Virus record (IMG/VR): IMGVR_UViG_3300023442_000016 | Location: 1 to 29,538 of that record | DNA length: 29,538 nucleotides | Source: a virus | Strand: one strand, 5' to 3' | Part shown: positions 4,333-27,808 of the stretch, piece by piece | Position numbering within the stretch: position 1 is the stretch's first letter | Layout of the letters: every line of letters starts with the position of its first letter | Notes under the pieces: generated by a model | What the model was told of the DNA's origin: nothing | What the model saw: only the letters and a program-made list of their open reading frames with translations | Databases searched by the model: none | Position numbers and translations under genes: made by a program

Positions 4333-7300
4333 TCACTCGTACACAACGCACTCGTTGCAGTATGTTCTGAGCGTGTAGTTCGGGATATATAATCCGTATG
4401 GGCAATTATTCAGGTCCAGCCACCACCAAATACCAACTGACTGACTCGGCTGGACATTGCTCACAACAAACGAAAACGATGTGGTGAGATTGGTTGCGTT
4501 CCCGGGATAGCTGATGTTATTTACCTTAAGGTTTATGCAGCTATCTGGTTCTTCGTTTAGTTTTATCCCTATCTTGAACGGGTCGGTTATCGTGCTGTCA
4601 GCGGTTATGTTCCAAATAGGCGTAGTGTCGCTTTGACCGTACGGCGGAACGTTTGTGTCATTGTTAGTTCTTATGTCCCAGCCTCCAACTTCCGTGAACG
4701 ATGTCGGGTATGTTAGATTAAACTTGCTGTATCTGACCATTATGGTTTTTGTTATGTTTAGCGTTTTGTCTCCTATTGGAAAAGCGGTTACCGTAAGATT
4801 GTAGTCTTTTGGGTAAGTGAACGCCAAATCTTTGACCTCCAGCGTTCCTGACGACATTCCAAAACTTATGTTAATTAAATCGTTATTTGCGAGATAGTCG
4901 TTTATCAGGCTTCTGTTTGTTCGGGTTAGGTCTATGTCGCGTAAGGTTATCGATAGATTAACATCTGTGTAGTTCATTCTACCCTGGCTCCCGGCAACGA
5001 ACTTCACAGGGACCAAGCATGTTGTGTCGTCGTTACAGCCGATCGATGTGATGCAGTTTAGTATCGAAGAGCTCGGTATTGACACATCAAATGGAGAGTT
5101 CTCGGGGCTTACCGCCGTCGTGTTAACATACTCGTATGTGCCATCATTACATATGTCAATTGACACATTTGACGATGTTCCGTTCGATACAATTATCTTA
5201 ACAGAGTCTATATACAGCTCCGTTCCGTCTGTTATCATCGAAGCCTTCCAGCTTATGTTAGTCCCATAGTTCGTAAAGGTATGCGTCGTGTCTGGTATAA
5301 CCTCCTCCCAATCAACACCATTAGGCGATAAATACCATGTTATGTTGGCTTTCGTTTCGTCTGGCGTGTAATACGAAGCATTGAAGTAAGCTGATACGAC
5401 CTGCCCTCCAAACTCGTGAAGGACTGTGCTAACTATTTCGGCATTGGTGAAGTTATTCATCGCACCCGTATAAACGGGATTTACGCCGCTTGTGTTAATC
5501 TCGTATATTCTGCCCGTAGCACTTCCGCCACCAGAGCAGTAACAGTTATTTCCAGTATTGGTATTATCGTCTATTTGACCCGTCGCCGCCGTATACACTG
5601 CTATTGCGTATTTGTGCGACGGATTTATAGTCGTTGATGCATAATACACGCCATCGTCGTAACTTTTCATCGTATTCCCGGTAAGATTGAACGTCCAAAT
5701 GCTTGTGTCACTATCCGATCGGCCGCAGCTATTTCCGTAGGCAGCGGCACACCAAACGCTGTATGTCGGTGTCATCTGCGTATACGAACCTGTTGTTATG
5801 TCGTAAATTCCTGCATGTGCCGTGGCTGAGCCATAACCCGTGCAACTTACGCCGCTCGCACCAGCAGACACATACAAGTATAACTTAACCTTCCACTGCT
5901 GGTTGTCAATCATATTTATGTCCTTAAACCAGAATTTACCGTTTCCAGAGTTCGAAGATACGCCGCTATTGTCACAGTAGTCATTAACCATCGACTTACT
6001 ACCAGACATCTGTATCCATCTGTTAACGCTGTCAACTTCGTAGCTGTTCCAGTTGCTATAACTTGAGTCCCATCTACCAGATACCTCGCCCATGCTAAAA
6101 TCGTCGTACACCCTAAATGGATATGTAGCATTACCGCTCGATATGTATTCAGAACTGCCGAAACCATCTTCAAACGAATAGTATTCTGGGTTTGCGGGCT
6201 TGCCCCATATTTTGAGCGTGAAATTGTGCATAGTTGATGAGTCGAAATCAAATACGCTCGTGTTTATATACCTTATCTTGCTCGATTGTGAAGTAAATAC
6301 CATACTTTCAGACGAAAGCCCATTTGAGAATTTGTCCACGGTTAGGAGATTGCCGCTTAAATTTCCGATTCCAACTACATCGGGTATCCCGTCATTTAGG
6401 GCATCTACGAACCAATCAACTACCGAATATCCAGTTACGTTTATCTTCGCATTTGTCAGGTTTCTGCCTCGCATCAGGCTCAAAGTCAGATACTGACCGT
6501 TTGTGAAGTTCTTGTCTGTTTCATTATACTGTATAGGCGATTCTCCATTAAAACTGAAGTTCTTTTCCCAGTAAGGAGCTACTGTATAATTGTATTCAAA
6601 TGGAGATGCTCCGCAGCTTATATTTTCTTCTCCGTAAGCATCTGTTCCTATGCAATATGTTGAACCAGTTGTTCCTACAACAGTTATGTTTGCTTTTGTA
6701 TTATATTCGTATTTCCTATCGATTTCTAATCCATTTAGGTATAAATTTGACGGTGGTTGGTTTGCTGTTTCTTCTGCTCCGATTGAGTAGGTGGGTTCTG
6801 GGGAGGTGTATTTTGTAACCCAAATAGTGTCTAAATATGTTTTGTCCGTTCCGATGTTATAACATTGTTGTTGAATTTCAATATAATAATCAGTCGATGA
6901 AGGGACTTGTGTTACTGTTGCTATATTTGAGTTATTTCTATATAAATTGTTGTTATTTAAAAATTCTATTATATAATTACTTGGAAAGTTTGAGGTTTCT
7001 ACCCAAGATGAACTTTCATACCAAGTGCCTGATGTTGCTGTGAGTTCAGACCAGTGTGCATCGTTGGGTCTTTTCATAAACCCCAATGCTTCGCTTCCTC
7101 CAGCTCCAGTTCCTTGTGTGTCTGTGAATGATATAGACGCAACTGTCCAAATGTTTGATGTTTCTTCACCTAATTTAAGTCCGTTTACATATATCCTTAA
7201 ACCTCCCCAAGAAGGTTTAGAAACTTTTATTTTAGATGATATATAAAATTGATTTTGAATAGATGATAGAACGTCTATATGTAAATATGAGTCCTCTACT

Positions 7301-8901
7301 CTTGGCGTGCCACAGTTACTACTATCTATTTCATTCCATTTATTTGTGTCTAAAGTCGTCCCGTCAAAATCATCAAAAATATCAAATGTATCATTACCAT
7401 TACTCTCACTACTCACAACCGTAGTATTTCCATAATAAACATAAACAGTTTCCGTTCCGCTTGCCGTAATACTCGGCACTTTTACCCAGACATAAGCCCA
7501 ACTGCTATCTACTTTGCTTTCAATCCAGTAAGGAATTTCTGTTTCCGTAGCATCAGTTGAATTATACCAAGTAAATCTCAAGTCTGAAAAATCGCTGACC
7601 ATGTCAGCATCGTAAGTTATATTTATTGGAACTTGATAATCCGTCAGTGTGTTTCCTGAATTTTCAGTTATAGTAATCGGTTTCCTGTAACTCCAACTGC
7701 TGTTCCACCAAGCCATTCTGTAAAGCGTTCTACCTGCTAATTTAGCGGTTACATCGGACGCCACGAACCCGAGTTTCGGCTTCCTGATACCGACCAAATC
7801 GGCGTAGTACCACTCGCCTGACTCTATCCTCACCCCTTTTCTAAATGGCATCCACACCTTTTCCCTGATTACTTTGGTCCTGTTTTCAACTCTTTCAGTC
7901 CATGTATAGTTGTATTCTTCTATTTTTTCTTCGCCTGTAACATTGTCTATTATAGTTCTATTGATTATCTTCCATCTTTCTACATCTACATAGTTAGGAA
8001 CTTCTTTTTCAACTTCTTTTAGAATATCTACCCTTAACTCTTTCCATTCGTCCTTTCCTATCATCTTCTGTATGAAAACAGGTATGTTCTTATAAGGAGT
8101 GTAGTTCCTATTAATCCTGAACCTGAAAGGAACGTGGCATTCCGAAAGACACGAGGGAGTGTATCTTATCCCTTCTACTTCATCCACTTGCTCGTAGTCT
8201 ATTATGTAATAGCCAACTTTTATTGTTGGGTCTATTTCCTGATACCCTTTACTGCTCTTGAATGTCAGTACAACCTTGCCATTATTGTACATATATCCTG
8301 TCGAGAACTTATCGGAAGCGTCTTCCCAGCTTATCTGAAGTTTCTGCAGGTCGAGCTTCGTGTAGTTGCGTAAGCTCTTTCTCTGGTTGTAGAAATCCGT
8401 TTCGTGTATGAACCTGAGATTGAATTTCGTCGAGTTATCGGCTGGATACCACCTGATACTCTCTTTATTGGTATCCGGATAGATTTCGACTGTTCTAACC
8501 AGTCTGCCAACATATTTTCTGTGCAAGGAGTCGTTGTAATAGTCTGAAGTCATAGTTACCCACGCCTTCTCCTTAGTGTAGCTCAGCTGGGTCGGATAAC
8601 TCGTTTTATATCTAATCAGGTGAGCTCCGTGATACACACGCCAATACGATTTGTCTACCAAGTCCGAACCGCAGTAGCTCTTCACCACGCTTTTGCCGTA
8701 AGACCACCTGTAAAACTCGCAGAACTCATCGTAGCTCCTCCCAAGAAGCTCGACTTTATCGGAAATATTGGTCAGCAGTATCAGGTCGTAATCAGGATGC
8801 TCGGTCAGCAGATATCTATACTGCCACATGTAAAGCCTATCGACACCTATCAGAGAAAGTATCAGCAGAGTTCCTATCGCAAATATTACCTTGTATTTCA
8901 T
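4333..8901 (-). CDS. Giant surface/adhesin-like protein with DUF2341 and LamG-like domains, 1522 aa
   Basis: Domain order: a signal peptide or signal anchor (MKYK then hydrophobic 5-20); a 370-residue region I cannot assign; a DUF2341-type module at about 397-490 (begins WWNSSWSYRKPITI, with YWIES and VYVYYGN); a LamG/concanavalin-like module at about 507-708 (IFDDFDGTTLDTNKW); a second LamG-like part near 930-1110 (FRVYDDFS...RWDSS); then beta-rich repeats with paired cysteines to the end. N-x-S/T sequons are dense throughout, fitting archaeal surface glycosylation. It overlaps the previous gene as ATGA and sits between tail-tip and hub genes, where receptor-binding proteins occur. It should display sugar-binding domains for host attachment. 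A host-derived surface protein is the alternative. The segment encoding the DUF2341-LamG part is more A+T-rich than its flanks, hinting at module exchange. Confidence 0.75.
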   Translation of the reverse strand: MKYKVIFAIGTLLILSLIGVDRLYMWQYRYLLTEHPDYDLILLTNISDKVELLGRSYDEFCEFYRWSYGKSVVKSYCGSDLVDKSYWRVYHGAHLIRYKTSYPTQLSYTKEKAWVTMTSDYYNDSLHRKYVGRLVRTVEIYPDTNKESIRWYPADNSTKFNLRFIHETDFYNQRKSLRNYTKLDLQKLQISWEDASDKFSTGYMYNNGKVVLTFKSSKGYQEIDPTIKVGYYIIDYEQVDEVEGIRYTPSCLSECHVPFRFRINRNYTPYKNIPVFIQKMIGKDEWKELRVDILKEVEKEVPNYVDVERWKIINRTIIDNVTGEEKIEEYNYTWTERVENRTKVIREKVWMPFRKGVRIESGEWYYADLVGIRKPKLGFVASDVTAKLAGRTLYRMAWWNSSWSYRKPITITENSGNTLTDYQVPINITYDADMVSDFSDLRFTWYNSTDATETEIPYWIESKVDSSWAYVWVKVPSITASGTETVYVYYGNTTVVSSESNGNDTFDIFDDFDGTTLDTNKWNEIDSSNCGTPRVEDSYLHIDVLSSIQNQFYISSKIKVSKPSWGGLRIYVNGLKLGEETSNIWTVASISFTDTQGTGAGGSEALGFMKRPNDAHWSELTATSGTWYESSSWVETSNFPSNYIIEFLNNNNLYRNNSNIATVTQVPSSTDYYIEIQQQCYNIGTDKTYLDTIWVTKYTSPEPTYSIGAEETANQPPSNLYLNGLEIDRKYEYNTKANITVVGTTGSTYCIGTDAYGEENISCGASPFEYNYTVAPYWEKNFSFNGESPIQYNETDKNFTNGQYLTLSLMRGRNLTNAKINVTGYSVVDWFVDALNDGIPDVVGIGNLSGNLLTVDKFSNGLSSESMVFTSQSSKIRYINTSVFDFDSSTMHNFTLKIWGKPANPEYYSFEDGFGSSEYISSGNATYPFRVYDDFSMGEVSGRWDSSYSNWNSYEVDSVNRWIQMSGSKSMVNDYCDNSGVSSNSGNGKFWFKDINMIDNQQWKVKLYLYVSAGASGVSCTGYGSATAHAGIYDITTGSYTQMTPTYSVWCAAAYGNSCGRSDSDTSIWTFNLTGNTMKSYDDGVYYASTTINPSHKYAIAVYTAATGQIDDNTNTGNNCYCSGGGSATGRIYEINTSGVNPVYTGAMNNFTNAEIVSTVLHEFGGQVVSAYFNASYYTPDETKANITWYLSPNGVDWEEVIPDTTHTFTNYGTNISWKASMITDGTELYIDSVKIIVSNGTSSNVSIDICNDGTYEYVNTTAVSPENSPFDVSIPSSSILNCITSIGCNDDTTCLVPVKFVAGSQGRMNYTDVNLSITLRDIDLTRTNRSLINDYLANNDLINISFGMSSGTLEVKDLAFTYPKDYNLTVTAFPIGDKTLNITKTIMVRYSKFNLTYPTSFTEVGGWDIRTNNDTNVPPYGQSDTTPIWNITADSTITDPFKIGIKLNEEPDSCINLKVNNISYPGNATNLTTSFSFVVSNVQPSQSVGIWWWLDLNNCPYGLYIPNYTLRTYCNECVVYE

Positions 8902-16476: not shown

Positions 16477-17640
16477 TCATTCGTCGGCAACTACGAGCCT
16501 GACAGCCGCGTCGTCGTGTATTGTGCCAACTCCATAGTCGAAGCTCAACTTCATTCTGACTTGGTCTGCATTCGGCCAGTCAAATGTCTTGAGCTCCGCC
16601 TTTCTTCCCCATACCAATGCGGCTATCTTACCCGCCTTTGTCATGAGGCACATGTGTGCGTCAGTATCGAACGCCTGAGTGCCTCCCTGCATAGAAATGT
16701 AGTCCCCGCTCGCTATGGCAGGCACTTTGGTTGTCTCAATCAACTTTACTCCCATGTATTGTGCTATTTCTCCGTTCAGTATCGGGTCTCTTGCCCCGAA
16801 TTCTGCTGCGTTGCTGAACTGAGGGTCTTGCAGAAGTGTTGCCATCTGTTCTGGAGCAAGGAACAACACTATCGGCTCTCCTTTGTCAGAGCTCCACGGA
16901 TTCTTGGGCGTTGCGGACTTCGTAAATGTGTTTAAAGCCCAGTAGTATCCGATTGTTGATTGCAGGAGTCTCCTTGCCTTTATTATCATATCAGTCGTTA
17001 TCACGTCTCCTGCGTCCAGCGAGTTGTCCGCGTCAGTTGCATCTCCACCGTATATCGTCTGCATGCCGTTTACAGTATTGCTCATTGCAGTTGCACCAGC
17101 CGTAACCTGTGCAGCCGAGCTGTCTACCGTTCCGAGTATTGCGTCTCTTATTGCGGAGTCTATTACATCCTCGAAATGATACGAAAGCTCGGTCTGGCAG
17201 TATCGCAACAGGTTAAGTGCATTGGTCCTCAGGTTCTTGTTGGAGAGTGCAACCCCGTAGTTGTATGTCTGCGGAGAAATCTGAACTGCGTCGTTTGTAT
17301 TTATTGCAGTCCAGCTTATCTCGCTCCCAGCCGAATATTCAGCCGTGGAACTTTCCCAGCTACCAGATGCCAGGTATTTGGTTCTGTATGGTATTGAAAT
17401 CTGTGCCACTCCTTCAGGCAGCTGGTATTGGGAAACTACCTGCATGAACATCATTCGCTCTTTTGCAGCGTCAATTGCGTCTTTTAGATACTGAACAGGC
17501 TGAGAGCCATATGCGGTAAACGAAGAGCCTCTCGATACGCTCGTGGTTGTAACAGTGGATGCGAGCTCAAATGTCTTCCACTCTCCGACACCGCCAGTAT
17601 ACTTTGCAGGTCTTATGTCAAGAGTTAGCGTCTTTTCCAT
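16477..17640 (-). CDS. Major capsid protein, HK97 fold, 387 aa
   Basis: ATG 17640 has a strong GGGGTGAT site. The sequence follows the HK97-type layout: an N-terminal arm (first 60 residues), a segment with AIDAAKERMMFMQVVSQYQL, an E-loop-like region, a spine-helix region (NLLRYCQTELSYHFEDVIDS), a P-domain/A-domain with PIVLFLAPEQMATLLQDPQF and GEIAQYMGVKLIETTKVP, and a closing region (AALVWGRKAELKTFDWP). The PEQMATL... and MGVKLIET motifs are typical of phage capsid A-domains. It directly follows the protease-scaffold gene by 7 nt. This is the shell protein, made in hundreds of copies. Confidence 0.85.
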   Translation of the reverse strand: MEKTLTLDIRPAKYTGGVGEWKTFELASTVTTTSVSRGSSFTAYGSQPVQYLKDAIDAAKERMMFMQVVSQYQLPEGVAQISIPYRTKYLASGSWESSTAEYSAGSEISWTAINTNDAVQISPQTYNYGVALSNKNLRTNALNLLRYCQTELSYHFEDVIDSAIRDAILGTVDSSAAQVTAGATAMSNTVNGMQTIYGGDATDADNSLDAGDVITTDMIIKARRLLQSTIGYYWALNTFTKSATPKNPWSSDKGEPIVLFLAPEQMATLLQDPQFSNAAEFGARDPILNGEIAQYMGVKLIETTKVPAIASGDYISMQGGTQAFDTDAHMCLMTKAGKIAALVWGRKAELKTFDWPNADQVRMKLSFDYGVGTIHDDAAVRLVVADE

Positions 17641-17647
17641 ATGCTTA

Positions 17648-18637
17648 TCACCCCTCTAAAAATTCTTTTTGTATGTAATCTGCCATTCCCTCAACTGAGT
17701 CCGAATACTTCTGCGTAACGCCTCCTTCTCCCTTTACGCTCAGTTTGTCGGGAACTGACAGCTGTTCTTTTAATCTTGCTATTTCCTGATGTGCAATCTC
17801 GAGTTTTTTCTTCAGCTCGGACAGTTCGTCATTGTCTGACATCTTTCCAGAAGCGACAGCCTTAGCAGCCTCAGGGAGCTTAACTCCAGGGTGATTCTTC
17901 ATGTAATCCTTTACCTTCTGTGCAAACGACTTGAGCTCCTCGTCGAGCTCTTCCGCAGGATACGGATATTCTTTCTTTTTCTTCTTCATTTCCTCCTCTT
18001 CTGGGTACGGATACTTCTTTTTCTTCTTTAACATCTCTCTTATGGCAGCTATCTCGTCTGCGGAGAGAGACTCTACCTGAGGTTGAGTATCAGGCTGACC
18101 TTCGCTCGGTTGCTCGCCGTTCGGCTGCCCATCGCTTGGCTGTTCCTCAGGCTCTGTTTCTTCTTGCAACTTTTTCTCTTCCTCCAACCTTATCACCTCT
18201 CGATTATTTATATAAGCAGTTTTTACCGCAGGGTTTATAACTATGCTGCAGTTCTCAATCATGCCGTCCAGTATTTGGTTGCCAGCTGTTCTTGCTTTGA
18301 TTCTCGGAGATATGCCGAATTTAGGCTTGCCAAACTTCATTTTCAGGGCTGTGTTAAGGTCATAGATGTAAAGGTCCCCGAAAATCTTGCCGTCTTTGTA
18401 ATACACGTTCTTAACGTAACCAACCCACTCGGAAGTTCTGTCATCCTCGTGGTCGAGAAATAAGTATGTGTTTTCAACCACGCTCCAGTCCGTATTCTTG
18501 TATAATTTTTCGATAACCTGCGGCGAGTAGTAATTACCGTTCCAGATGCCAGAGTCCATAAGCTCCTGATTTCTGATTATATACGGTATCTTTATTCCCA
18601 AGCATATAGTCCCGTCGCTTCTTACATTATGCTCCAT
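17648..18637 (-). CDS. Prohead protease fused to a scaffold domain, 329 aa
   Basis: The N-terminal 150 residues match prohead serine proteases of the S78/XkdF type: YLFLDHED with His63, WVGYVKNVYYKDGKIFGDL, then FGISPRIKA with Ser110, and NCSIVINPAVKTAYI. A Pro/Gln-rich linker with QPSxGQP repeats (about 166-187) joins a scaffold part. The scaffold includes two copies of a Lys-run followed by YPYP (about 203-213 and 218-227) and a coiled coil (about 270-294). The fused scaffold would shape the procapsid and then be degraded. ATG 18637 has no ribosome-binding site and is preceded by a TATA promoter, so the head-tail operon starts here. Confidence 0.8.
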   Translation of the reverse strand: MEHNVRSDGTICLGIKIPYIIRNQELMDSGIWNGNYYSPQVIEKLYKNTDWSVVENTYLFLDHEDDRTSEWVGYVKNVYYKDGKIFGDLYIYDLNTALKMKFGKPKFGISPRIKARTAGNQILDGMIENCSIVINPAVKTAYINNREVIRLEEEKKLQEETEPEEQPSDGQPNGEQPSEGQPDTQPQVESLSADEIAAIREMLKKKKKYPYPEEEEMKKKKKEYPYPAEELDEELKSFAQKVKDYMKNHPGVKLPEAAKAVASGKMSDNDELSELKKKLEIAHQEIARLKEQLSVPDKLSVKGEGGVTQKYSDSVEGMADYIQKEFLEG

Positions 18638-18674: not shown

Positions 18675-18827
18675 CTATAATAGTTTGTTTTTCTTCTGAT
18701 AAAGATACACTGTGCTTTTGCTCGCACCGATAGCTTCCGCTATCTGCCTTCTCGTGTAACCTTGCATCGTTAATGTGATTATTGTCTGCTCCAGCTGTTC
18801 ATTTATTTTTCTCGTCGGTTTTCCCAT
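18675..18827 (-). CDS. Helix-turn-helix protein, 50 aa
   Basis: ATG 18827 follows AAAAGGTG, and the frame ends at TAG 18675-18677. Most of the protein is one HTH unit: a leading helix (NEQLEQTIITLTMQ) then GYTRRQIAEAIGASKSTVYLYQ (split residues about 23-44), where IAEAIGAS-KSTVYLY is a textbook turn and recognition helix of the Hin/homeodomain-like type. A basic N-terminus (GKPTRK) could grip the minor groove. It overlaps the end of the 1400-aa gene by 29 nt and ends beside the head-tail promoter, so it could control that promoter. A role as a small terminase-like DNA binder is less likely because a better candidate exists. Confidence 0.7.
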   Translation of the reverse strand: MGKPTRKINEQLEQTIITLTMQGYTRRQIAEAIGASKSTVYLYQKKNKLL

Positions 18828-21800
18828 CGGGACACCTTTTCAGCCTGTCAAACAAAATTATGTGATGGTCTCCTATGTGTGCTATGTGATATTCAAAGCA
18901 ACCGCTCAATTGCTTAAGCTCGTTTGGTTCGTCTCTTACTGGCAGTCCCATCGTCACAGCTTTCTTGAGGAACTTCTTGTTGATTCTTCCTTTCCTGGTC
19001 CTAAACTCTATTATGAACCTATGGTCATCAACGGCAACGACCCTGTATTCGCCTTTAGCAACAATTGTGAATATGCCGGGATAGTTCTTCGTGCTGCCAG
19101 GCAAGGGTGGTTCGAATATGCCTTCGACATACAGCCAGCTCTTCGGTTCGGGAAGCTTCATTTCGCACCTTATCCCTTTCGCATCGTTATTCACTTTGTC
19201 AGGTATGTCCATATCGACAGATGCAGGAGAGTTCAGCGTTATTCCTTCAAGGTAGCCATCGATGTATCTCGCATTCTCGTATTTGATTGTCGAACCGTCT
19301 TTGAAATTGTCGAACTTCAGCGGAACGAAGAACCTTGAGTCGGTATGAACGGACCTGCCCCTGAGGTGGTGTTGCATAACAAACGGAAGCCACATCTTCT
19401 TTTCCATAGCTTTTCTCATAACGCTCTGAAACCTCTTCGGAAAATCCTTAACTTCGTGCTCTTCTCCTTCTTCCTGCAGTTCGATATTCTCGACAACTTC
19501 CTCGCCTATGCTCGTAACCACGTTCTCGAGGTCGCTTATTGTGGATGTTTCCTTCAAGTCTGGTCTCGCCTGCCTGAATCTCGGTTTGTGAATTGAGTAT
19601 CGCAATACGTTCTGCTTTGTGTATGTGTGTCTCCAGACATCTTCAACCATAATGTCTATTATGCTGCCAACAGTGACGTTTTCTTTGGTATTGAATGTTT
19701 TTCCGAGAACAAGCACCTTCCTGCCGTTAACGGCTGTTACATACTTCGGATGCATTCTTTTTGCCTGCTCGTCCGAGATGTAGATTCCGACGAGATAGTT
19801 GAATGTCCCTGCGACCTTCGTTTCTATCTTGTCTATGACAACAGTATGCAAATCAACGAGATGCCTGAACTTCAGCCAAGTTCTTTTCCTTTCTCCGAAT
19901 GTGTAAGGAGCGTCAGCGTCCTTTATTACCGCACCTTCAGAGCCAGAAAGGTTCGCAGCCCATTCCACAGCTTTCTTAACGTTGTCGATGCCTTTCACGA
20001 GTTTGTACGGAGTGTTCGTGACACGCCCGTCAAAGTGCAGCTGCTCGAGAATTTTCTTCCTTTCTCTCAACGGCAGGGAAGTTATGTCCTTTCCGTAGTA
20101 TGTTATGTCCCATATGTGGACTTTTATGTCGGAGTCGTCAACTTTCTTTCCAGACTTGACAGCCCCAACATACTTCATCAACGGGTCTCTTCCCATAGCC
20201 TTGTCTCCTTTATACGGCACGAGCTCGCCATCTACTATGAAGTCTTTTTCGCTGAGCTTCCTTATATGATTAACCAGAGTCGGAAACGGAGAGGTTATGT
20301 CTTTTTTCTGCTCCGAGAATATTTTCACTTCGTCGCCTGACTTGTGGATGCTCACATGAAAGCCATTAAACTTCTTTTCAACATAATATTCTTTGTTATT
20401 ATCGAGCTCGCTTAACAAGTCTTCGATATTATAGAACGCAGAGCCATACGGTTTTTGAGGAAGATATGGATGCATCAGCTTCAGTTCTGACAGCCGAAGG
20501 TTAATATCCTTCCTGACGAGGACTAAGTCGTAAAGGCTGAGGAATTCGCCGTGTGGTCCCATAGGCTCGCAGAAGACGTGTATGTCCTTATCCACGCCAA
20601 CGCTGTCCGCAATTTTCTGCAACTGCGAATATATCGCACGCTTGAAGTATTCGACAGCCTCGTGCGTATCGAGCCTGATTAAGATGTCAATATCGTTTCC
20701 GTCTCCGTGCTCGGCTGTTGAACCGACTAAGGAAACGAAATCAGTAACGATTGTCATACGCTCCGGGATACTCGACAGGAAGTTATTGATTGTCGCCTCG
20801 GACAGCTTCTTTGTATCGAAGTTCGTAATCAGATACTCATACTCCGGCTTATCGTCTTTTGCGAGTGTCCTTGGAACAAGTATCTTCCGCATACTGAAAC
20901 TTTTGAACATATCGGTTATCCACGGCAGTATGTTTGTGCTGAGTACGAACTTTCCTTTGATATTAGATAGTATACTTTTCATCTGCTCGTAATCCTCTTT
21001 TGTAAACGCACCAGATTTGTCGCCCCATCTATCGTCCCACTCTTCAGGATACGGCGGGTCAAGGTAAAATAAGGTGCCTTCAGAATCAAATTCTCTTATA
21101 ACATCTGCATAATCCTTGTTGTAAATCTTAACGTTCCTAAGCCGCTCCTTGAGCCCGATAAGCCTATCGAAGTATCGCTGGCTCGGTTTAGGCACAGACT
21201 TCCAACCAAACGAACTTCTGCTATGTCCATAACTATGCATAGTTAAGTATATGAACCTGTAGAATCTCTCCAAGTCGTTCTTTGGTTTGAACTCGTCCTT
21301 CAGATACATAAAATGCTCCTTCGACGGATTCCAGTTCATGCCTTTCAATTTCTCTATTTTTTCGGGAGTTATGCTCTGTATGAACCTGTATGCAAATGCG
21401 ATTTCCGGGTCTTTATCATTCAGGACTTCAACTTCAGACGGCTCTTTTTCCCAGAAGACAGCCGCCCCTCCAGCAAACGGTTCAACATAAACCTTATGCT
21501 CTGGCAACATTCTAACGATTTTCTTTGCTATGCGGGATTTTCCACCGGGGCTTCCGAATGCTTGCTTAGCGAGAATCAGAGTTGAATCTTCCTCGAGGCT
21601 CATTATTTTCTGGGATTCGATACGCTTCATAATCTTCTCGTAAACTTCTCTCGAATGCGGAGTCATCTCCTCCGGATGGAACTTCATACCACGCCTAATC
21701 ATTTCCTCCGTTATCAACTGAATTAAGTTTTCTATCTCTTCCATCGAATACTTTATTTTACCGCCTCTTGACTTTGTAGCATGCCAAGCCATAGCGATTC

Positions 21801-23001
21801 TGAAGTCGTCACGCAGAATGTCATCAGGGACTTTGGCTGGGTCGTAGGACGCTACATCCTCTATCAGCTTTCTTTCAGACAGGAACTCGACATCCTTTAT
21901 GAACGTCTGAACGCCCTGCGGAAGTTTCACGTCCCTCGGCATCTCGAATCTCTCAACGACCTCGAATTCGTATGCGAAAAGAACATGTTTGTCTGGCCAC
22001 CACTCCTTCCTTTCCTCGTCGCTTATCTTGTGCTTGTCTTTAAGCTCCTCGAATTGCTTGAGGTTTATCGGATAAATTTTCGTAATCTTTATTACGCCGT
22101 AACACTTGTTGCCTTCTATCAAGTAGAGCATCTTGCCCTCTATGTCAAATCTTTTTGACTTAACAATCAGCTTCTTCGAGCCAGTCCAAATCATGTGACC
22201 GTGCGGTCTGACGAGGTAAATGCCTTCCATCTCCTTCACCATCTTCACGACGTTCGTATCGAGCTTCATGCCGTCATACGAAAGTATGACTTTAGTATGC
22301 TTGTTCCCGATTTCCTTCCACGCATCCCTGATTTTTTTCACAGCCTCGTTGTAGCTCGGGTATGTGTGACCAGCTTGTATGAGCACGCCAATCGACGGCT
22401 TATATTTTGCAAGAAGCTTCAAAGCGTCTTCGGTATTGAGATGGCCTTTTATCTGCCTGCCGAACCACATAGCAGCGTCGATAATTATTATGCTGGCATC
22501 TTTGAAGTACTTCTCCGACTCCTTCGGTATCTCGCCAACATCTTCAGCGTATACTATGTCGTTCAGCCTGTAGCCTACCGTCGGGAATCCAGCCTGAATT
22601 GAATGTATCAACCTGAACGGAGTTATCTTGTATTTTCCGATTTCAAACTGTTTTCCGACATAAATAGGGATGTAATTAAGTATGGATAAGCTTGCGAACT
22701 TGCTCCTGATTTTAGACCAAGTCTCCGGCTCTGCGTATATGTCAACGGACTGTATGTTAGCGTCCGCAAGGTATCTGACGAGCTGCGGTATGCCGCCGAC
22801 AGCGTCATTGTGAGCGTGAGTTACGAGAACGTGCCTTATTTCTTTTATTCCGCTCCTCTTAATCTGCTCGTCGAAGTTGGGAGTAACGTCAATCAAAATT
22901 TTCTCGTTGTGAAGATAGACAGAGCTGTTCAAACGTCTGTTCTTCCCGCGACCTTCAACGGGTTTCGCCGGTCCAGTTCCGAGAAATTCAATCATCATCA
23001 A
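18799..23001 (-). CDS. Multidomain DNA-processing protein: MBL fold, PUA-like, Dam, nucleotidyltransferase, ligase, 3'-phosphoesterase, 1400 aa
   Basis: One uninterrupted frame with these parts. (1) Residues 3-250: metallo-beta-lactamase/PhnP-like fold, H62-x-H64-x-D66, H133, D154, H212; the usual His after D66 is Ala. (2) 262-375: PUA/ASCH-like segment (RPHGHMIWTG, ISDEERKEWW). (3) 376-465: helical linker. (4) 475-730: Dam-type adenine methyltransferase with GSPGGKS 483-489, PFAGG 508-512, NDKDPE 528-533 and DPPY 648-651. (5) 745-850: nucleotidyltransferase, GS 760-761 and D770-x-D772. (6) 855-1150: ATP-dependent ligase with K877-F-N-G, DGE 924-926, EGAVIK 1022-1027, WLKFR 1042-1046 and an OB-fold. 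(7) 1186-1390: LigD-like 3'-phosphoesterase with HHLRGRSVHTDSRF and H1379/H1380. It overlaps the portal gene by 14 nt. Three ATG codons open the frame. It may protect and mend viral DNA ends; physical location, in the cell or in the capsid, is unknown. Confidence 0.85.
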   Translation of the reverse strand: MMMIEFLGTGPAKPVEGRGKNRRLNSSVYLHNEKILIDVTPNFDEQIKRSGIKEIRHVLVTHAHNDAVGGIPQLVRYLADANIQSVDIYAEPETWSKIRSKFASLSILNYIPIYVGKQFEIGKYKITPFRLIHSIQAGFPTVGYRLNDIVYAEDVGEIPKESEKYFKDASIIIIDAAMWFGRQIKGHLNTEDALKLLAKYKPSIGVLIQAGHTYPSYNEAVKKIRDAWKEIGNKHTKVILSYDGMKLDTNVVKMVKEMEGIYLVRPHGHMIWTGSKKLIVKSKRFDIEGKMLYLIEGNKCYGVIKITKIYPINLKQFEELKDKHKISDEERKEWWPDKHVLFAYEFEVVERFEMPRDVKLPQGVQTFIKDVEFLSERKLIEDVASYDPAKVPDDILRDDFRIAMAWHATKSRGGKIKYSMEEIENLIQLITEEMIRRGMKFHPEEMTPHSREVYEKIMKRIESQKIMSLEEDSTLILAKQAFGSPGGKSRIAKKIVRMLPEHKVYVEPFAGGAAVFWEKEPSEVEVLNDKDPEIAFAYRFIQSITPEKIEKLKGMNWNPSKEHFMYLKDEFKPKNDLERFYRFIYLTMHSYGHSRSSFGWKSVPKPSQRYFDRLIGLKERLRNVKIYNKDYADVIREFDSEGTLFYLDPPYPEEWDDRWGDKSGAFTKEDYEQMKSILSNIKGKFVLSTNILPWITDMFKSFSMRKILVPRTLAKDDKPEYEYLITNFDTKKLSEATINNFLSSIPERMTIVTDFVSLVGSTAEHGDGNDIDILIRLDTHEAVEYFKRAIYSQLQKIADSVGVDKDIHVFCEPMGPHGEFLSLYDLVLVRKDINLRLSELKLMHPYLPQKPYGSAFYNIEDLLSELDNNKEYYVEKKFNGFHVSIHKSGDEVKIFSEQKKDITSPFPTLVNHIRKLSEKDFIVDGELVPYKGDKAMGRDPLMKYVGAVKSGKKVDDSDIKVHIWDITYYGKDITSLPLRERKKILEQLHFDGRVTNTPYKLVKGIDNVKKAVEWAANLSGSEGAVIKDADAPYTFGERKRTWLKFRHLVDLHTVVIDKIETKVAGTFNYLVGIYISDEQAKRMHPKYVTAVNGRKVLVLGKTFNTKENVTVGSIIDIMVEDVWRHTYTKQNVLRYSIHKPRFRQARPDLKETSTISDLENVVTSIGEEVVENIELQEEGEEHEVKDFPKRFQSVMRKAMEKKMWLPFVMQHHLRGRSVHTDSRFFVPLKFDNFKDGSTIKYENARYIDGYLEGITLNSPASVDMDIPDKVNNDAKGIRCEMKLPEPKSWLYVEGIFEPPLPGSTKNYPGIFTIVAKGEYRVVAVDDHRFIIEFRTRKGRINKKFLKKAVTMGLPVRDEPNELKQLSGCFEYHIAHIGDHHIILFDRLKRCPDGKTDEKNK

Positions 23002-24217
23002 TCTTTTCTATCTTTCTTATGTATCTCTCGAGTTTTTCGTCTGGCTTGAGAGCTCCCGTCTTTACGTACTTGGATAATCTGTTGGCTTTCGAGTCAAGCT
23101 CGCCTATCGATATCTCGTTCCACACGATTCTTACGGGAGAGATTCTCTCAAGCTCGCAGAACTCTCCTAATATCTTCCTGTTAATCAGGCTGACCGTTTT
23201 GTCTATAAACTGTTTCAACGACACAAGAAATATGTATTCCTGGCGTATTGTCGTGGCTCTGTTTGCTTCTCCTGAGACCAGAGACGACGGAACGCCGAGA
23301 CCGATTAGCTGTTGCTCTATGAAATACTCGAGTGCCTCTCTTGGAACTCCGTTTGACCTCGACTCGAGAATGTCAAGCTTGTTATAGTACGGCGTAGCGA
23401 GAACAGACGACTCGCTGACGTTTTTCGCTATTTCCGCTGCGTCCTCGAGTTGCTCTTCCGTCGGCGGGTGCATTTGGTCTCCGACATACATAACCTTTAT
23501 CGGAAAGCCTGCTCGCTTTAGGCTGTTTGAGTATCCAACTTCAGCTTCTTTCTTCTGAACTACCAAGTCATATATCGCTTCGACGAGTCCCTTTCCGAAG
23601 TAGCCATTACCAACGCTCGAATACCTGAAGTGAACGATTTTGTCCGCTGGTATGAATATTTGGTTTCCAGTAAGAACCACATCGGGCGGCGGCTCTATCT
23701 TGTTCTCGATGGCAGACGCAAACTGCGATGGCAGTGTCTCGACATAGCCCAACGGGTTTCCGTAGTCGTCAACCGCTACCGTGCCCTGCCTGGTGTACGC
23801 GTAATCCATCTGCTTCGGGTCCACGAAGTCAAGGTCTATCAACTTCCTTCCGTTTCCGCTGTAAATTTTTTCTATGTAGCAACTTCCGTATATCATCTGG
23901 TATTTGAATATTATCTCGAGAATTTCCGACCACGTAACAGTCCCGCCTATGCTACCTATGTTCGACAGAAATTCGTTTACGACAGACACGCTGTTTTCGT
24001 CACCCTCGAGATGCCAGCCTGCGTGAAGAACGAGTTCGGTCTTGAGGTCAATAGCCGCTCTGACGAGAGGGTCTTGGACATACGCTGCCTCGAGTTTTTC
24101 CCTGTCGAACTGAGTTCCAGCCTCGCCAATCCTGATAGCGGACGGCTTGCCAGCCTTCCTCACTTTCAACGTCAGCACTTTATTTGGCAGGTTGCTCCAA
24201 AACCTGAAGTTTACCAT
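22988..24217 (-). CDS. Portal protein, 409 aa
   Basis: The sequence has the portal family's course: DPLVRAAIDLKTELVLHAGW near 48-67, EILEIIFKYQMIYGSCYIEKI near 99-119, FVDPKQMDYAY, then IFIPADKIVHFRYSSVGNGYFGKGLVEAI (split about 187-215) and the C-terminal IEQQLIGLGVPSSLVSG. The portal forms the twelve-part ring at one capsid vertex through which DNA enters and leaves. It overlaps the large terminase gene by 38 nt and the 1400-aa gene by 14 nt. ATG 24217 has only a weak ribosome-binding site, consistent with coupled translation. Confidence 0.85.
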   Translation of the reverse strand: MVNFRFWSNLPNKVLTLKVRKAGKPSAIRIGEAGTQFDREKLEAAYVQDPLVRAAIDLKTELVLHAGWHLEGDENSVSVVNEFLSNIGSIGGTVTWSEILEIIFKYQMIYGSCYIEKIYSGNGRKLIDLDFVDPKQMDYAYTRQGTVAVDDYGNPLGYVETLPSQFASAIENKIEPPPDVVLTGNQIFIPADKIVHFRYSSVGNGYFGKGLVEAIYDLVVQKKEAEVGYSNSLKRAGFPIKVMYVGDQMHPPTEEQLEDAAEIAKNVSESSVLATPYYNKLDILESRSNGVPREALEYFIEQQLIGLGVPSSLVSGEANRATTIRQEYIFLVSLKQFIDKTVSLINRKILGEFCELERISPVRIVWNEISIGELDSKANRLSKYVKTGALKPDEKLERYIRKIEKIDDD

Positions 24218-25724
24218 ACAATCTATTATTAACGCTGATATTATTTAAAGTTTTTAACACGCCGACTTTTATCGGCTTGTAGGAAGTTGCGTGTGCATCG
24301 CTGCATGCGAGTGCGAGGCTCATCACGGTGTCGTCGTGCTTTCCCGTGCTCACGAAACCCGAACTCTCCTTGTCTGGAAGCTTTATAGTTTTCAGCTCGC
24401 CGATAAGTATGTTCGAGTTGTGGAGGCTCGGGTCCGGAGAGTCCTTAGCGGGTATGACCAATCTTTCAGACTCTATCAGCGAGCCGAGATTGACGAGCAA
24501 CGAGTTTCTTGACTGTGCATCGAATTTCTGCGATATGACTGGCAAACCCCTGTTAATCATCTCGTCAACAAAAGCCTTCCCGTAGCCAGATTCGTCCGCG
24601 TAAATTCTGTTAACGCCAAACGTCGAGACGATATACTGGATTGCGTCGACCTGGCTGCTCAGAGGCTTGTTCTTAAATCTTGTTATGTGCCTCACTATGA
24701 CAGGGTTTTTGACCTCCGCCTCTCGCTTTCCGTTATTTTTCACGTGCCTGTCCTTCATCTGAACGACCGTAAACACCGAATAGTCCGCGTATTCGCTCTC
24801 ACCCCACGAGAAGTCGCACCCGAGAAACACCCTTCCGTCGAGCTTTTGCGGCTTGAATTCGAGACCGTAGTCGAGGCAGTTGTAGATGTGCTCTTCCTTA
24901 ACAAAACACTTGCCAGCCGCAATCGGGTTGCACATAAACTCCCTCTGGAATGCGAATTCGCCCATCCTTCTCCTTTCCTTTCTCCAGTATTCGAGGTCTG
25001 TTCTTTCGCTCCAGAGAGGCTTGACCCAGTTGCCGTTGCTGTCCGTTATAACCGCCTGGTATCTCTTCCACGCAAAGCCCCATTCGGGTTTTTTAAGCTC
25101 GTGAAAAAGCAGGTCGCCTATGTTTTTCGGAGTCCCTATAACCTTGAGCTGGGAGTATTTCATGGGCGAATTGCAGGTCGGATAAACGCAGGTTTTGAAT
25201 ATTTCTATGACCTGCTGGTGCGTCAGCTCGGATTCGAGGAGTATGTCATCGAGTATCATCAGGTCTGGGTGTATTCCGACCACCCTGTCTGAATACGGCT
25301 CAACGAATATCTTCGAACCATTTTTCAGCTCGATTTCGCTCTTGGTCGAAGTCTCCTCCCTGTTTGGTCTGTAAGGCTTGAAAAAGTCGTTGTTCATCAC
25401 GATGTCCCTTATCTGCTTTATATTTTCCTGAGACTTTTGCAGCTTGTGGGATATGAGGCAGACTTCCATCTTGTCACGCAGGCTGAACCAGAGCGGATAG
25501 TCTATCGAAAATATGGAAGTTTTCAGGTGCCCTCTCGGACTGAGCAGGCACGCGAACCTGTTGTTTATTATGAATTCCGCTTGCTCGTAGTGAAACTTAC
25601 CCCACTCCCTCCCTACTATCTTCGTTGAAAAGAAAGGGAAGTCAACGAGAGCTCTCGTTCTCATTTCCGCCTCGCTCATCCCCAGTTCCTTTTTCAGCTC
25701 CACCATCAGTTTTCGTCCAAACAT
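24180..25724 (-). CDS. terL: Terminase large subunit, 514 aa
   Basis: ATG 25724 is chosen because GGTGAG precedes it; GTG 25733 is an alternative. The ATPase half has a Walker-A variant SPRGHLKTS (about 62-70), Walker B LMILDD (about 155-160) and the coupling motif VIGTPKN (about 195-201). The RNase H-like nuclease half has acidic residues in LGCDFSWG (Asp about 304), YADESGYG (about 377) and KHDDTVMSL (about 464-465). It translocates DNA into the procapsid and cuts it to length. It overlaps the small subunit gene by 83 nt and the portal by 38 nt, a tight packaging operon. Confidence 0.92.
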   Translation of the reverse strand: MFGRKLMVELKKELGMSEAEMRTRALVDFPFFSTKIVGREWGKFHYEQAEFIINNRFACLLSPRGHLKTSIFSIDYPLWFSLRDKMEVCLISHKLQKSQENIKQIRDIVMNNDFFKPYRPNREETSTKSEIELKNGSKIFVEPYSDRVVGIHPDLMILDDILLESELTHQQVIEIFKTCVYPTCNSPMKYSQLKVIGTPKNIGDLLFHELKKPEWGFAWKRYQAVITDSNGNWVKPLWSERTDLEYWRKERRRMGEFAFQREFMCNPIAAGKCFVKEEHIYNCLDYGLEFKPQKLDGRVFLGCDFSWGESEYADYSVFTVVQMKDRHVKNNGKREAEVKNPVIVRHITRFKNKPLSSQVDAIQYIVSTFGVNRIYADESGYGKAFVDEMINRGLPVISQKFDAQSRNSLLVNLGSLIESERLVIPAKDSPDPSLHNSNILIGELKTIKLPDKESSGFVSTGKHDDTVMSLALACSDAHATSYKPIKVGVLKTLNNISVNNRLYGKLQVLEQPAK

Positions 25725-26289
25725 CAATCTCACCGAGCTGAGGAAGTATGTTCTTCAGCGAAGGGTCGAGAATTTTTATTTTGTTTTTCTTCGCAAGCTG
25801 CACTATAAACTCCGTCGTGTGTTTGTTGAGCTGGAGCACATTGTAGGTAACCTGCTGCTTCTCGTATTTCGACAGAAGCTTTGTTTTCAGCTTCAGGTAC
25901 CTGTCAAACTCTATCTGAAACATCTTTACCAGCTGGTCTACCATGGCTATGTAGTATTTCAGGGAATTCGCTATCTTGCCTTCGTCGAATCCTTCCCTGA
26001 CCATTTCGGAGAGCTTGTTCTTGAATTCGGAAACCTCGTTGTAAACGCTTTCAAATCTTTTCAACACTTCCTCGAAGTGCTTGTCTTCCCTCTCCTCCAG
26101 CTTCTTATACAGCTCCCTATCCTTCAGCGAGTAGATGTCTCCGTACATTCTGATTTGCGAGATGAGGGATTTGGAGGCTGACATTCCATTGCTTGCGAGA
26201 GTTCTGAGTATCTCGTCGTCGCTTTTGCCCTCCTCGAGCATCTCCGCAATCATCTTCCTCTCAATGGTTTTCGCGAGACCTGTCACCAT
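25642..26289 (-). CDS. terS: Terminase small subunit candidate, 215 aa
   Basis: ATG 26289 follows GGAGGG. The N-terminus is a helix-turn-helix-like unit (MIAEMLEEGKSDDEILRTLA then SKSLISQIRMYG), followed by a long helical and coiled-coil region (about 60-165) and a disordered end rich in Gly, Glu and Lys (about 195-215). DNA-binding head, coiled-coil oligomerisation and position directly before the large subunit fit a small terminase that recognises the packaging site. Sequence conservation in this family is weak, so position carries much of the call. Confidence 0.75.
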   Translation of the reverse strand: MVTGLAKTIERKMIAEMLEEGKSDDEILRTLASNGMSASKSLISQIRMYGDIYSLKDRELYKKLEEREDKHFEEVLKRFESVYNEVSEFKNKLSEMVREGFDEGKIANSLKYYIAMVDQLVKMFQIEFDRYLKLKTKLLSKYEKQQVTYNVLQLNKHTTEFIVQLAKKNKIKILDPSLKNILPQLGEIDVWTKTDGGAEKGTGDERGGNENESSR

Positions 26290-27332: not shown

Positions 27333-27473
27333 ATGAGTGATTCTGCTGAAAGCGTTTATTACCGAATGTATTGTCGAAAGTGCGGAGAGGAATGCGAGAT
27401 AAGGGAGATTATGCGAAGGTGTATGAGGGAAACTGGAAGGGAGAGCATAATAGCGAGGGAGCATAGGGTATGA
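27333..27473 (+). CDS. Small Cys-rich basic protein, 46 aa
   Basis: ATG 27333 follows the divergent promoter at 20 nt, and the stop TGA overlaps the RNase H-like start (ATGA). The product has CRKCGEEC near residues 14-21 and a further Cys at 30, followed by a strongly basic helix (RRCMRETGRESIIAREHRV). It may hold a zinc ion and bind nucleic acid. Coupled to the RNase H-like gene, it probably acts with it. I do not recognise the family. Confidence 0.6.
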   Translation: MSDSAESVYYRMYCRKCGEECEIREIMRRCMRETGRESIIAREHRV

Positions 27474-27808
27474 AAATCTACATAGACGGTTCTGGCTGGA
27501 ACGGAAAGGAAAGCAAGTTGTGCATAGCAAAAGAAGATGGAGCGGTGGTAAGGAAGGTGTTTAAGGAGAAGAGAACGAACAACGAAATGGAATACGAGGC
27601 TCTGCTCTTGGCGTTGCAGTTGGCGGAAAAAGGCGACAGGATATACACGGACAGTCAGTTAATCTTGGGACATTTGTGCTACGGCTGGAGGATTAAGGCA
27701 AGGCATCTATTCCCGCTGATAATGAGGGCAAAGAAACTCAAGGAGGAAAAGAAGGTTAGGATATATTGGATACCGAGGAAGAAGAACGTTGCGGGTCATC
27801 TGATATAG
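27470..27808 (+). CDS. RNase H-like protein, 112 aa
   Basis: The RNase HI fold is readable: D6 in IYIDGSG, E41 in NNEMEYEALLLAL, D61 in YTDSQL, and a final WIPRKKNVAGHLI where the fourth catalytic position is H110 instead of Asp. At 112 residues it is a minimal member. The usual role is to cleave RNA in RNA-DNA hybrids, for example primers or transcripts at an origin. Being in a divergent, promoter-led operon suggests early expression and a part in replication. The basic protein start is ATG 27470, overlapping the previous gene. Confidence 0.82.
   Translation: MKIYIDGSGWNGKESKLCIAKEDGAVVRKVFKEKRTNNEMEYEALLLALQLAEKGDRIYTDSQLILGHLCYGWRIKARHLFPLIMRAKKLKEEKKVRIYWIPRKKNVAGHLI

Follow-up and report, generated by a model that had tools for sequence, protein, structure and literature searches.

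What might a virus do with a single large protein that joins a metallo-beta-lactamase fold, a PUA-like domain, an adenine methyltransferase, a nucleotidyltransferase, a ligase and a phosphoesterase homologue? The question is raised by a gene in the virus record IMGVR_UViG_3300023442_000016, the whole 29,538 bases of which are referred to here as the window. A preliminary description had placed a single 1400-codon frame at positions 18799-23001 without giving its strand. The coordinates are exact and the frame is intact; the gene is on the minus strand, and a plus-strand reading of the same interval is ruled out by many stops in the same register. The listed start codon is TTG; the next two triplets are ATG codons and lie inside the end of the portal gene. 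Since the start lies within the end of the portal gene, the two genes are probably translationally coupled.

The gene is part of a series of virion genes on one strand, in the order terminase, portal, multi-domain gene, protease/scaffold and major capsid protein (MCP), followed by connector and tail-type genes. Directly upstream is the portal protein (22988-24217, minus strand; Pfam Portal_Mu, 9.7e-15; phrog_9232, 2.9e-15), and before it the terminase large subunit (24180-25733, minus strand; phrog_38, 4.2e-40). Directly downstream is the head maturation protease or scaffold (17648-18637, minus strand), assigned from a weak match to phrog_976 (0.0018) and from orthologues at the same place in relatives, and then the MCP (16477-17640, minus strand; phrog_1357, 3.9e-10). 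Elsewhere in the window, positions 4333-8901 (minus strand) encode a 1522-residue protein with a DUF2341 domain (Pfam), possibly a receptor-binding or surface protein, and positions 27470-27808 (plus strand, opposite to the head operon) a protein with an RNase H domain (Pfam).

The protein begins with a PhnP-like metallo-beta-lactamase (MBL) domain, residues 1-255 (22237-23001, minus strand), which is matched by Pfam Lactamase_B_2 over residues 34-207 (7.2e-22) and whose structure model finds the PhnP family in Foldseek (3qh8, 3md7 and 6b9v). The motif HAHND is at residues 62-66, and the window protein displays HAHNDA where PhnP-like hydrolases have HxHxDH. Wherever the MBL motif is readable in the family, the last His has given way to Ala, Cys, Val or a different residue, and the chemistry of the domain may have changed. 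An ASCH (PUA-like) domain follows at residues ~258-385 (21847-22230, minus strand) and is conserved in relatives. Pfam ASCH aligns with residues 271-353 at 2.9e-4 in the full protein and at 1.2e-5 for the domain alone, the latter with 26.4 bits, above the curated cut-off of 21.2; a comparison of the ASCH profile with PDB gave nothing useful. Residues ~386-476 (21574-21846, minus strand) form a conserved helical domain that has no name, seen as helices in the model and recurring in L001, L002, L009, L012, L071 and others (L numbers designate contigs). The model of the first 480 residues, MBL-ASCH-helical, has a mean pLDDT of 85.

The next module is a D12-class Dam adenine methyltransferase, residues ~477-735 (20797-21573, minus strand), detected with Pfam MethyltransfD12 at residues 485-704 (5.9e-26) and with phrog_56 (4.4e-53). 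Its motifs are intact and in the D12 order, FAGGAA at 509-514 and DPPY at 648-651, and by these motifs the methylase looks active. Dam is an optional insert that is found at three chain positions among the relatives. The window protein has it at one place and those of L001 and L013 at another, with Dam sequences 52-56% identical, and in L016 it is placed after the phosphoesterase homologue. A different DPPY methylase is present in L008 (3379-5802, residues ~250-560), at the place that Dam takes in L001, between the MBL and ASCH domains. The comparison of L008 with L001 suggests that methylases have replaced one another at this single MBL/ASCH junction.

A Pol-beta-type nucleotidyltransferase (NT) occupies residues ~739-845 (20467-20787, minus strand). 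The Pfam NTP_transf_2 match in the window protein, at residues 756-815, is weak, at 0.059 for the full protein and 0.0033 when the domain is taken by itself, and the same model matches 7 of the 12 family members, at best with 2e-4. The aligned motifs are conserved, with GS at 760-761, the D-x-D residues D770 and D772, and D825 as the third Asp. Against PDB the NT profile gives a weak match alone (9xbd, E 0.35), and the NT part of the model of residues 735-1400 (NT-LIG-OB-PE, mean pLDDT 77) is poorly modelled and not reliable.

The adenylation domain of an ATP-dependent DNA ligase (LIG) follows at residues ~846-1050 (19852-20466, minus strand). It is matched by Pfam DNA_ligase_A_M over residues 858-1045 (2.7e-28) and by 3gde (2.5e-22), and its model retrieves archaeal and human DNA ligases with Foldseek, DNA ligases accounting for all 50 of the matches listed; the best sequence matches are DNA ligases as well. 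An archaeal RNA ligase model is matched too, though weakly (2.1e-5). Motifs III (DGE, 924-926), IV (SEGAVIK, 1021-1027) and V (WLKFR, 1042-1046) are present. K877, which had been put forward as the adenylated lysine, is the lysine of motif I, but the motif is KFNG (877-880) and not the canonical KxDG. KxDG is found in L002, L016 and the virus ANMV-1, and KxNG in many other relatives. Residues ~1051-1150 (19552-19851, minus strand) are the OB-fold region of the ligase, supported by the model and conserved in relatives, and contain the segment PRFRQARPDLK, which we take to be motif VI-like. Judged from their conserved residues, both the ligase and the nucleotidyltransferase look active. The domain list and boundaries of the preliminary description are thus borne out, with two additions, the helical unit at ~386-476 and the OB fold after the ligase.

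The C-terminal module, residues ~1191-1400 (18802-19431, minus strand), is a homologue of the LigD-type 3'-phosphoesterase (PE). No Pfam match is found in this part of the window protein, and the assignment comes from profile comparison. With hhalign, the family PE alignment matches archaeal LigD_N domains at 98.1% (E 1.1e-13), the target consisting of four archaeal LigD_N domains and a second PE copy from L011; 20 column-shuffled control alignments reached at most 0.4%, and the five rows nearest the window alone gave 96.6%. Two crystal structures of archaeal PE, 3p43 (E 0.0023) and 3p4h (E 0.0038), are matched by the family PE profile as well. In LigD, PE has a metal triad of His42, His48 and Asp50, and His84 and Tyr88 are essential in the Pseudomonas aeruginosa enzyme (PMC8656161). 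The window PE keeps the triad as H1212, H1219 and D1221, together with R1223, and displays E1285 at the His84 position and W1289 at the Tyr88 position. Nearly all readable relatives have Glu, Gln or other residues at the His84 position; the His is retained in L016 alone, which nevertheless has Trp at the Tyr88 position. The chemistry of PE may therefore have changed as well. In the protein of L002 (10001-14821), the PE domain carries a 345-residue intein-like insertion at residues 1139-1483 (Pfam LAGLIDADG_3); its first residue is Cys, its last residues are HN, and the next residue is Ser.

The combination of ligase and PE had led to the proposal of a viral analogue of LigD without polymerase and without Ku. 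The ligase and PE parts of that proposal stand, and no primase-polymerase domain is matched by Pfam in the window protein, as had been stated. The overall likeness to LigD does not hold: a full LigD homologue is ruled out, as LIG and PE alone are common to both, there is no primase-polymerase domain (which is not in all LigD proteins) and E1285 and W1289 replace His84 and Tyr88. The NCBIfam LigD models align over the ligase part only, below their cut-offs. The statement on Ku holds for the 29.5-kb window, which has none, but of the 12 related virus records 2 do encode Ku, and the Ku-less records may be fragments. One Ku gene (L002, 1335-2078, minus strand; Pfam 1e-22) is paired with a second ATP-dependent ligase gene (L002, 251-1102, minus strand) in a contig of a virus that bears the module; the other (L057, 1468-2250) is in the contig of L010.

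Scans of viral contigs, genome contigs and phage records yielded more than 20 distinct relatives; two alignments, A4 and A5, proved too diverse to scan the collections with. The relatives include contigs of Methanophagales, Methanosarcinales and other euryarchaeal MAGs, one contig of Zixiibacteriota, and the virus ANMV-1, for which ANME archaea are the proposed hosts (PMC4372165). From these relatives, methane-oxidising archaea are the likely hosts of the window virus. L002, L062 and L071 have the core order MBL-ASCH-helical-NT-LIG-OB-PE, and so do L007 and L066, where the helical part is weakly matched or unmatched. L009 has the core without MBL, and in L011, L012 and L008 the modules are divided over two genes. 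A search of viral metagenomes for the domain order, as had been advised, thus finds the core recurring in independent viral contigs, and the arrangement, for which no described viral counterpart had been known, is unusual by the position of Dam alone. Comparison of L001 with L013 gives dN of 0.01-0.06 and dS of 0.26-0.67 in every module. This purifying selection argues against decay or an assembly artefact; an assembly fusion of separate genes, which the preliminary description had considered, is ruled out by it and by the recurrence of the core fusion in independent contigs.

The location of the gene, overlooked in the preliminary description, is the slot between portal and protease in the head operon. 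In 22 contigs no more than one small ORF separates the gene from the portal gene before it, and the protease and MCP genes usually follow (the window, L001, L002, L007, L008, L009, L011, L012, L013, L015, L016, L042, L043, L044, L045, L062, L066, L071, L072, L073, L074 and ANMV-1). L010 and L018 are exceptions, in which the upstream gene is no recognisable portal and resembles another virion gene. In five of the contigs, namely the window, L001, L007, L008 and L013, the start of the gene overlaps with the portal gene's end. In ANMV-1 the protein encoded before the ligase gene, AJP62005.1 (L004, 1913-3193), is annotated as a "MutT-like phage hydrolase" and matches portal proteins (phrog_146, 2e-30). 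Relatives are also fused to virion proteins: portal and an ASCH domain form one ORF in L044 (7690-9270), a Methanosarcinales MAG contig, and NT-LIG-PE-Dam and an XkdF head protease form one ORF in L016 (3072-6857; Peptidase_S78_2, 1.4e-17). Among the phage records listed, the LIG-PE-Dam-XkdF arrangement of L016 was not found in bacterial phages, with no record beyond ANMV-1 and the other listed matches being to Dam alone. A join of head protease/scaffold with MCP in one ORF is seen in L062 (11154-13523).

Within the 12 closer contigs, portal distances agree with those of MCP (r 0.77, 0/5000) but not with those of the ligase (r 0.12, 1020/5000). The window protein and that of L007 share 61% identity in the ligase core, and the two viruses share 27% in portal and MCP. 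Portal and MCP thus track each other and the ligase cores do not follow them, which points to cassettes that are exchanged between viruses yet kept in the slot. Co-inheritance of ligase and portal was considered and rejected, as the r of 0.78 over all 20 contigs comes from the deep split of the ANMV-1 group. The constraint on the slot is the strongest hint of a function linked to the head.

Published work on polyvalent proteins of phages takes a place among the late genes, and fusion with MuF, the portal or a head peptidase, as signs of packaging and injection (PMC5512222, PMC9503650). The same logic applied to the slot and fusions described here points to a head-associated protein that would repair, seal and sometimes methylate viral DNA, and places it with the injected or head-associated polyvalent proteins rather than with the cellular NHEJ enzymes. 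We give an even chance to this reading, in which tailed viruses of archaea would use a modular polyvalent protein to seal and protect their DNA, either while it is packaged or when it is delivered. The idea of one polypeptide serving both DNA ends and methylation is supported. The protein would be made alongside the head proteins, would associate with the prohead at its portal end and might enter the host with the DNA. Nicks or breaks in the viral DNA would be sealed by the ligase-OB core, 3' ends would be prepared by the PE homologue together with the nucleotidyltransferase, and Dam, where present, would protect against host restriction by methylating adenines. Nucleic-acid binding or docking could fall to ASCH and the helical domain, and the PhnP-like MBL might hydrolyse a nucleotide-type phosphodiester, on ends or as a counter-defence. 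Presence in the head or virion, delivery into the host, and the enzymatic activities with their substrates are all predictions from sequence. It should be noted that the MBL domain without its last His, PE without the equivalents of His84 and Tyr88, and the KxNG of the ligase indicate that some activities may be altered or lost, and that no MuF domain and no packaging signal are seen in the protein; the late-operon position, taken alone, shows co-expression only.

A more specific version of the head-associated reading is offered tentatively, at somewhat less than even probability: a capsid-carried DNA end-repair machine, in which ligase, PE and NT, with a methylase in some viruses, would be loaded via the portal-protease slot and injected together with the genome, to heal, seal and mark the DNA on arrival, ahead of any viral gene expression, with the virus's own Ku taking part in some cases. 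No virion-delivered ligase is described in the open-licence literature found. Delivery to the next host could also be dispensed with, nicks being sealed and ends cleaned at the portal during assembly only. The slot and the portal-ASCH fusion would fit such a role, as would the DNA-acting nature of ligase, PE homologue and Dam. Endonuclease VII of phage T4, which is linked to the portal, is a functional analogue. However MBL and the methylase have no obvious use in packaging and the polyvalent precedent favours delivery, and repair confined to packaging is considered fairly unlikely.

The slot may instead set no more than late expression, with the protein acting inside the cell as a LigD-like enzyme that, aided by Ku of the virus or the host, repairs the viral genome or closes it into a circle. 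LIG and a LigD-type PE in a single chain speak for it, as do the two related records with Ku, one of which has a second ligase gene; but 10 of the 12 records (possibly fragments) are without Ku, the primase-polymerase domain is lacking, His84 and Tyr88 are replaced, and circularisation is an early need while the gene is in the late head block. Intracellular end-joining is thus improbable. If the substrate were RNA, e.g., tRNA after attack by a host nuclease, PE would heal 3' ends, NT restore them and the ligase seal the RNA, with MBL and ASCH binding or processing it. An RNA substrate is in keeping with the ASCH/PUA and RNase Z-like folds, with KxNG in place of KxDG in motif I and with the weak archaeal RNA ligase match. 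Against this, the ligase is closest to DNA ligases, by structure and sequence, and has the motif VI-like segment, and Dam is a DNA enzyme, so that RNA repair is quite improbable. A largely structural protein, in which degenerate enzyme folds are reused as a head or scaffold part, is highly improbable: the altered MBL and PE residues and the fixed slot would be expected of it, but the ligase motifs, the G-S and D-x-D of NT and the DPPY of Dam are intact, and the family varies by whole modules, unlike a scaffold.

The head-associated reading, if correct, would bring tailed viruses of archaea, in which large examples are reported to be rare, under the polyvalent-protein idea, and would add DNA end repair and ligation to the functions of such proteins. 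It provides a candidate function for the "ATP-dependent DNA ligase" gene of ANMV-1 and for many uncultivated relatives, and describes modules that are swapped among viruses while one portal-protease slot is kept. Should the protein be carried in the capsid, it would be a direct answer to how the genome of such a virus is protected and sealed when it enters. In the open-licence papers nothing relevant was found on a LigD-type PE or an XkdF-linked ligase in phages, and earlier descriptions may exist.

Among known systems, bacterial and archaeal LigD shares the ATP-dependent adenylation-OB core and a PE homologue with the window protein, which differs in lacking the polymerase domain, in domain order, in its head-gene context and in the replaced His84 and Tyr88. 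Apyc1 and other PhnP-family MBL phosphodiesterases have the fold of the first domain; the window MBL differs in that the last His of HxHxDH is replaced and in being fused into a larger protein. The ANMV-1 protein AJP62006.1 (KP703175; PMC4372165, in whose main text the word "ligase" is absent) has the NT-LIG-PE core directly behind the portal gene and about 25% identity to the window protein over residues 755-1352; it has 866 aa and is without MBL, ASCH and Dam. The polyvalent proteins of phages, with P1 DarB as prototype (Iyer et al. 2017, PMC5512222), are like the window protein in being large chains of unrelated enzymatic domains, encoded next to late virion genes in portal-terminase viruses, and in having shuffled modules, an adenine methylase and relatives fused to virion proteins (portal-ASCH in L044, XkdF protease in L016). 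They differ in their domain set, that of the window being ligase, LigD-PE homologue, MBL, ASCH and D12 Dam. The main text of PMC5512222 does not contain "Lactamase" or "ASCH" and has "ligase" in a passage on RNA ligase only, and the DarB methylase is of EcoKI/TaqI type, whereas that of the window is D12 class. The hallmark polyvalent domains (MTase-SNF2 dyad, ArdC, zincin and MuF), typical yet not in every member, have no Pfam match in the window protein. The polyvalent examples over 1000 aa are almost all bacterial, with a paucity noted in archaea (PMC5512222), whereas the window protein is that of a probable archaeal virus.
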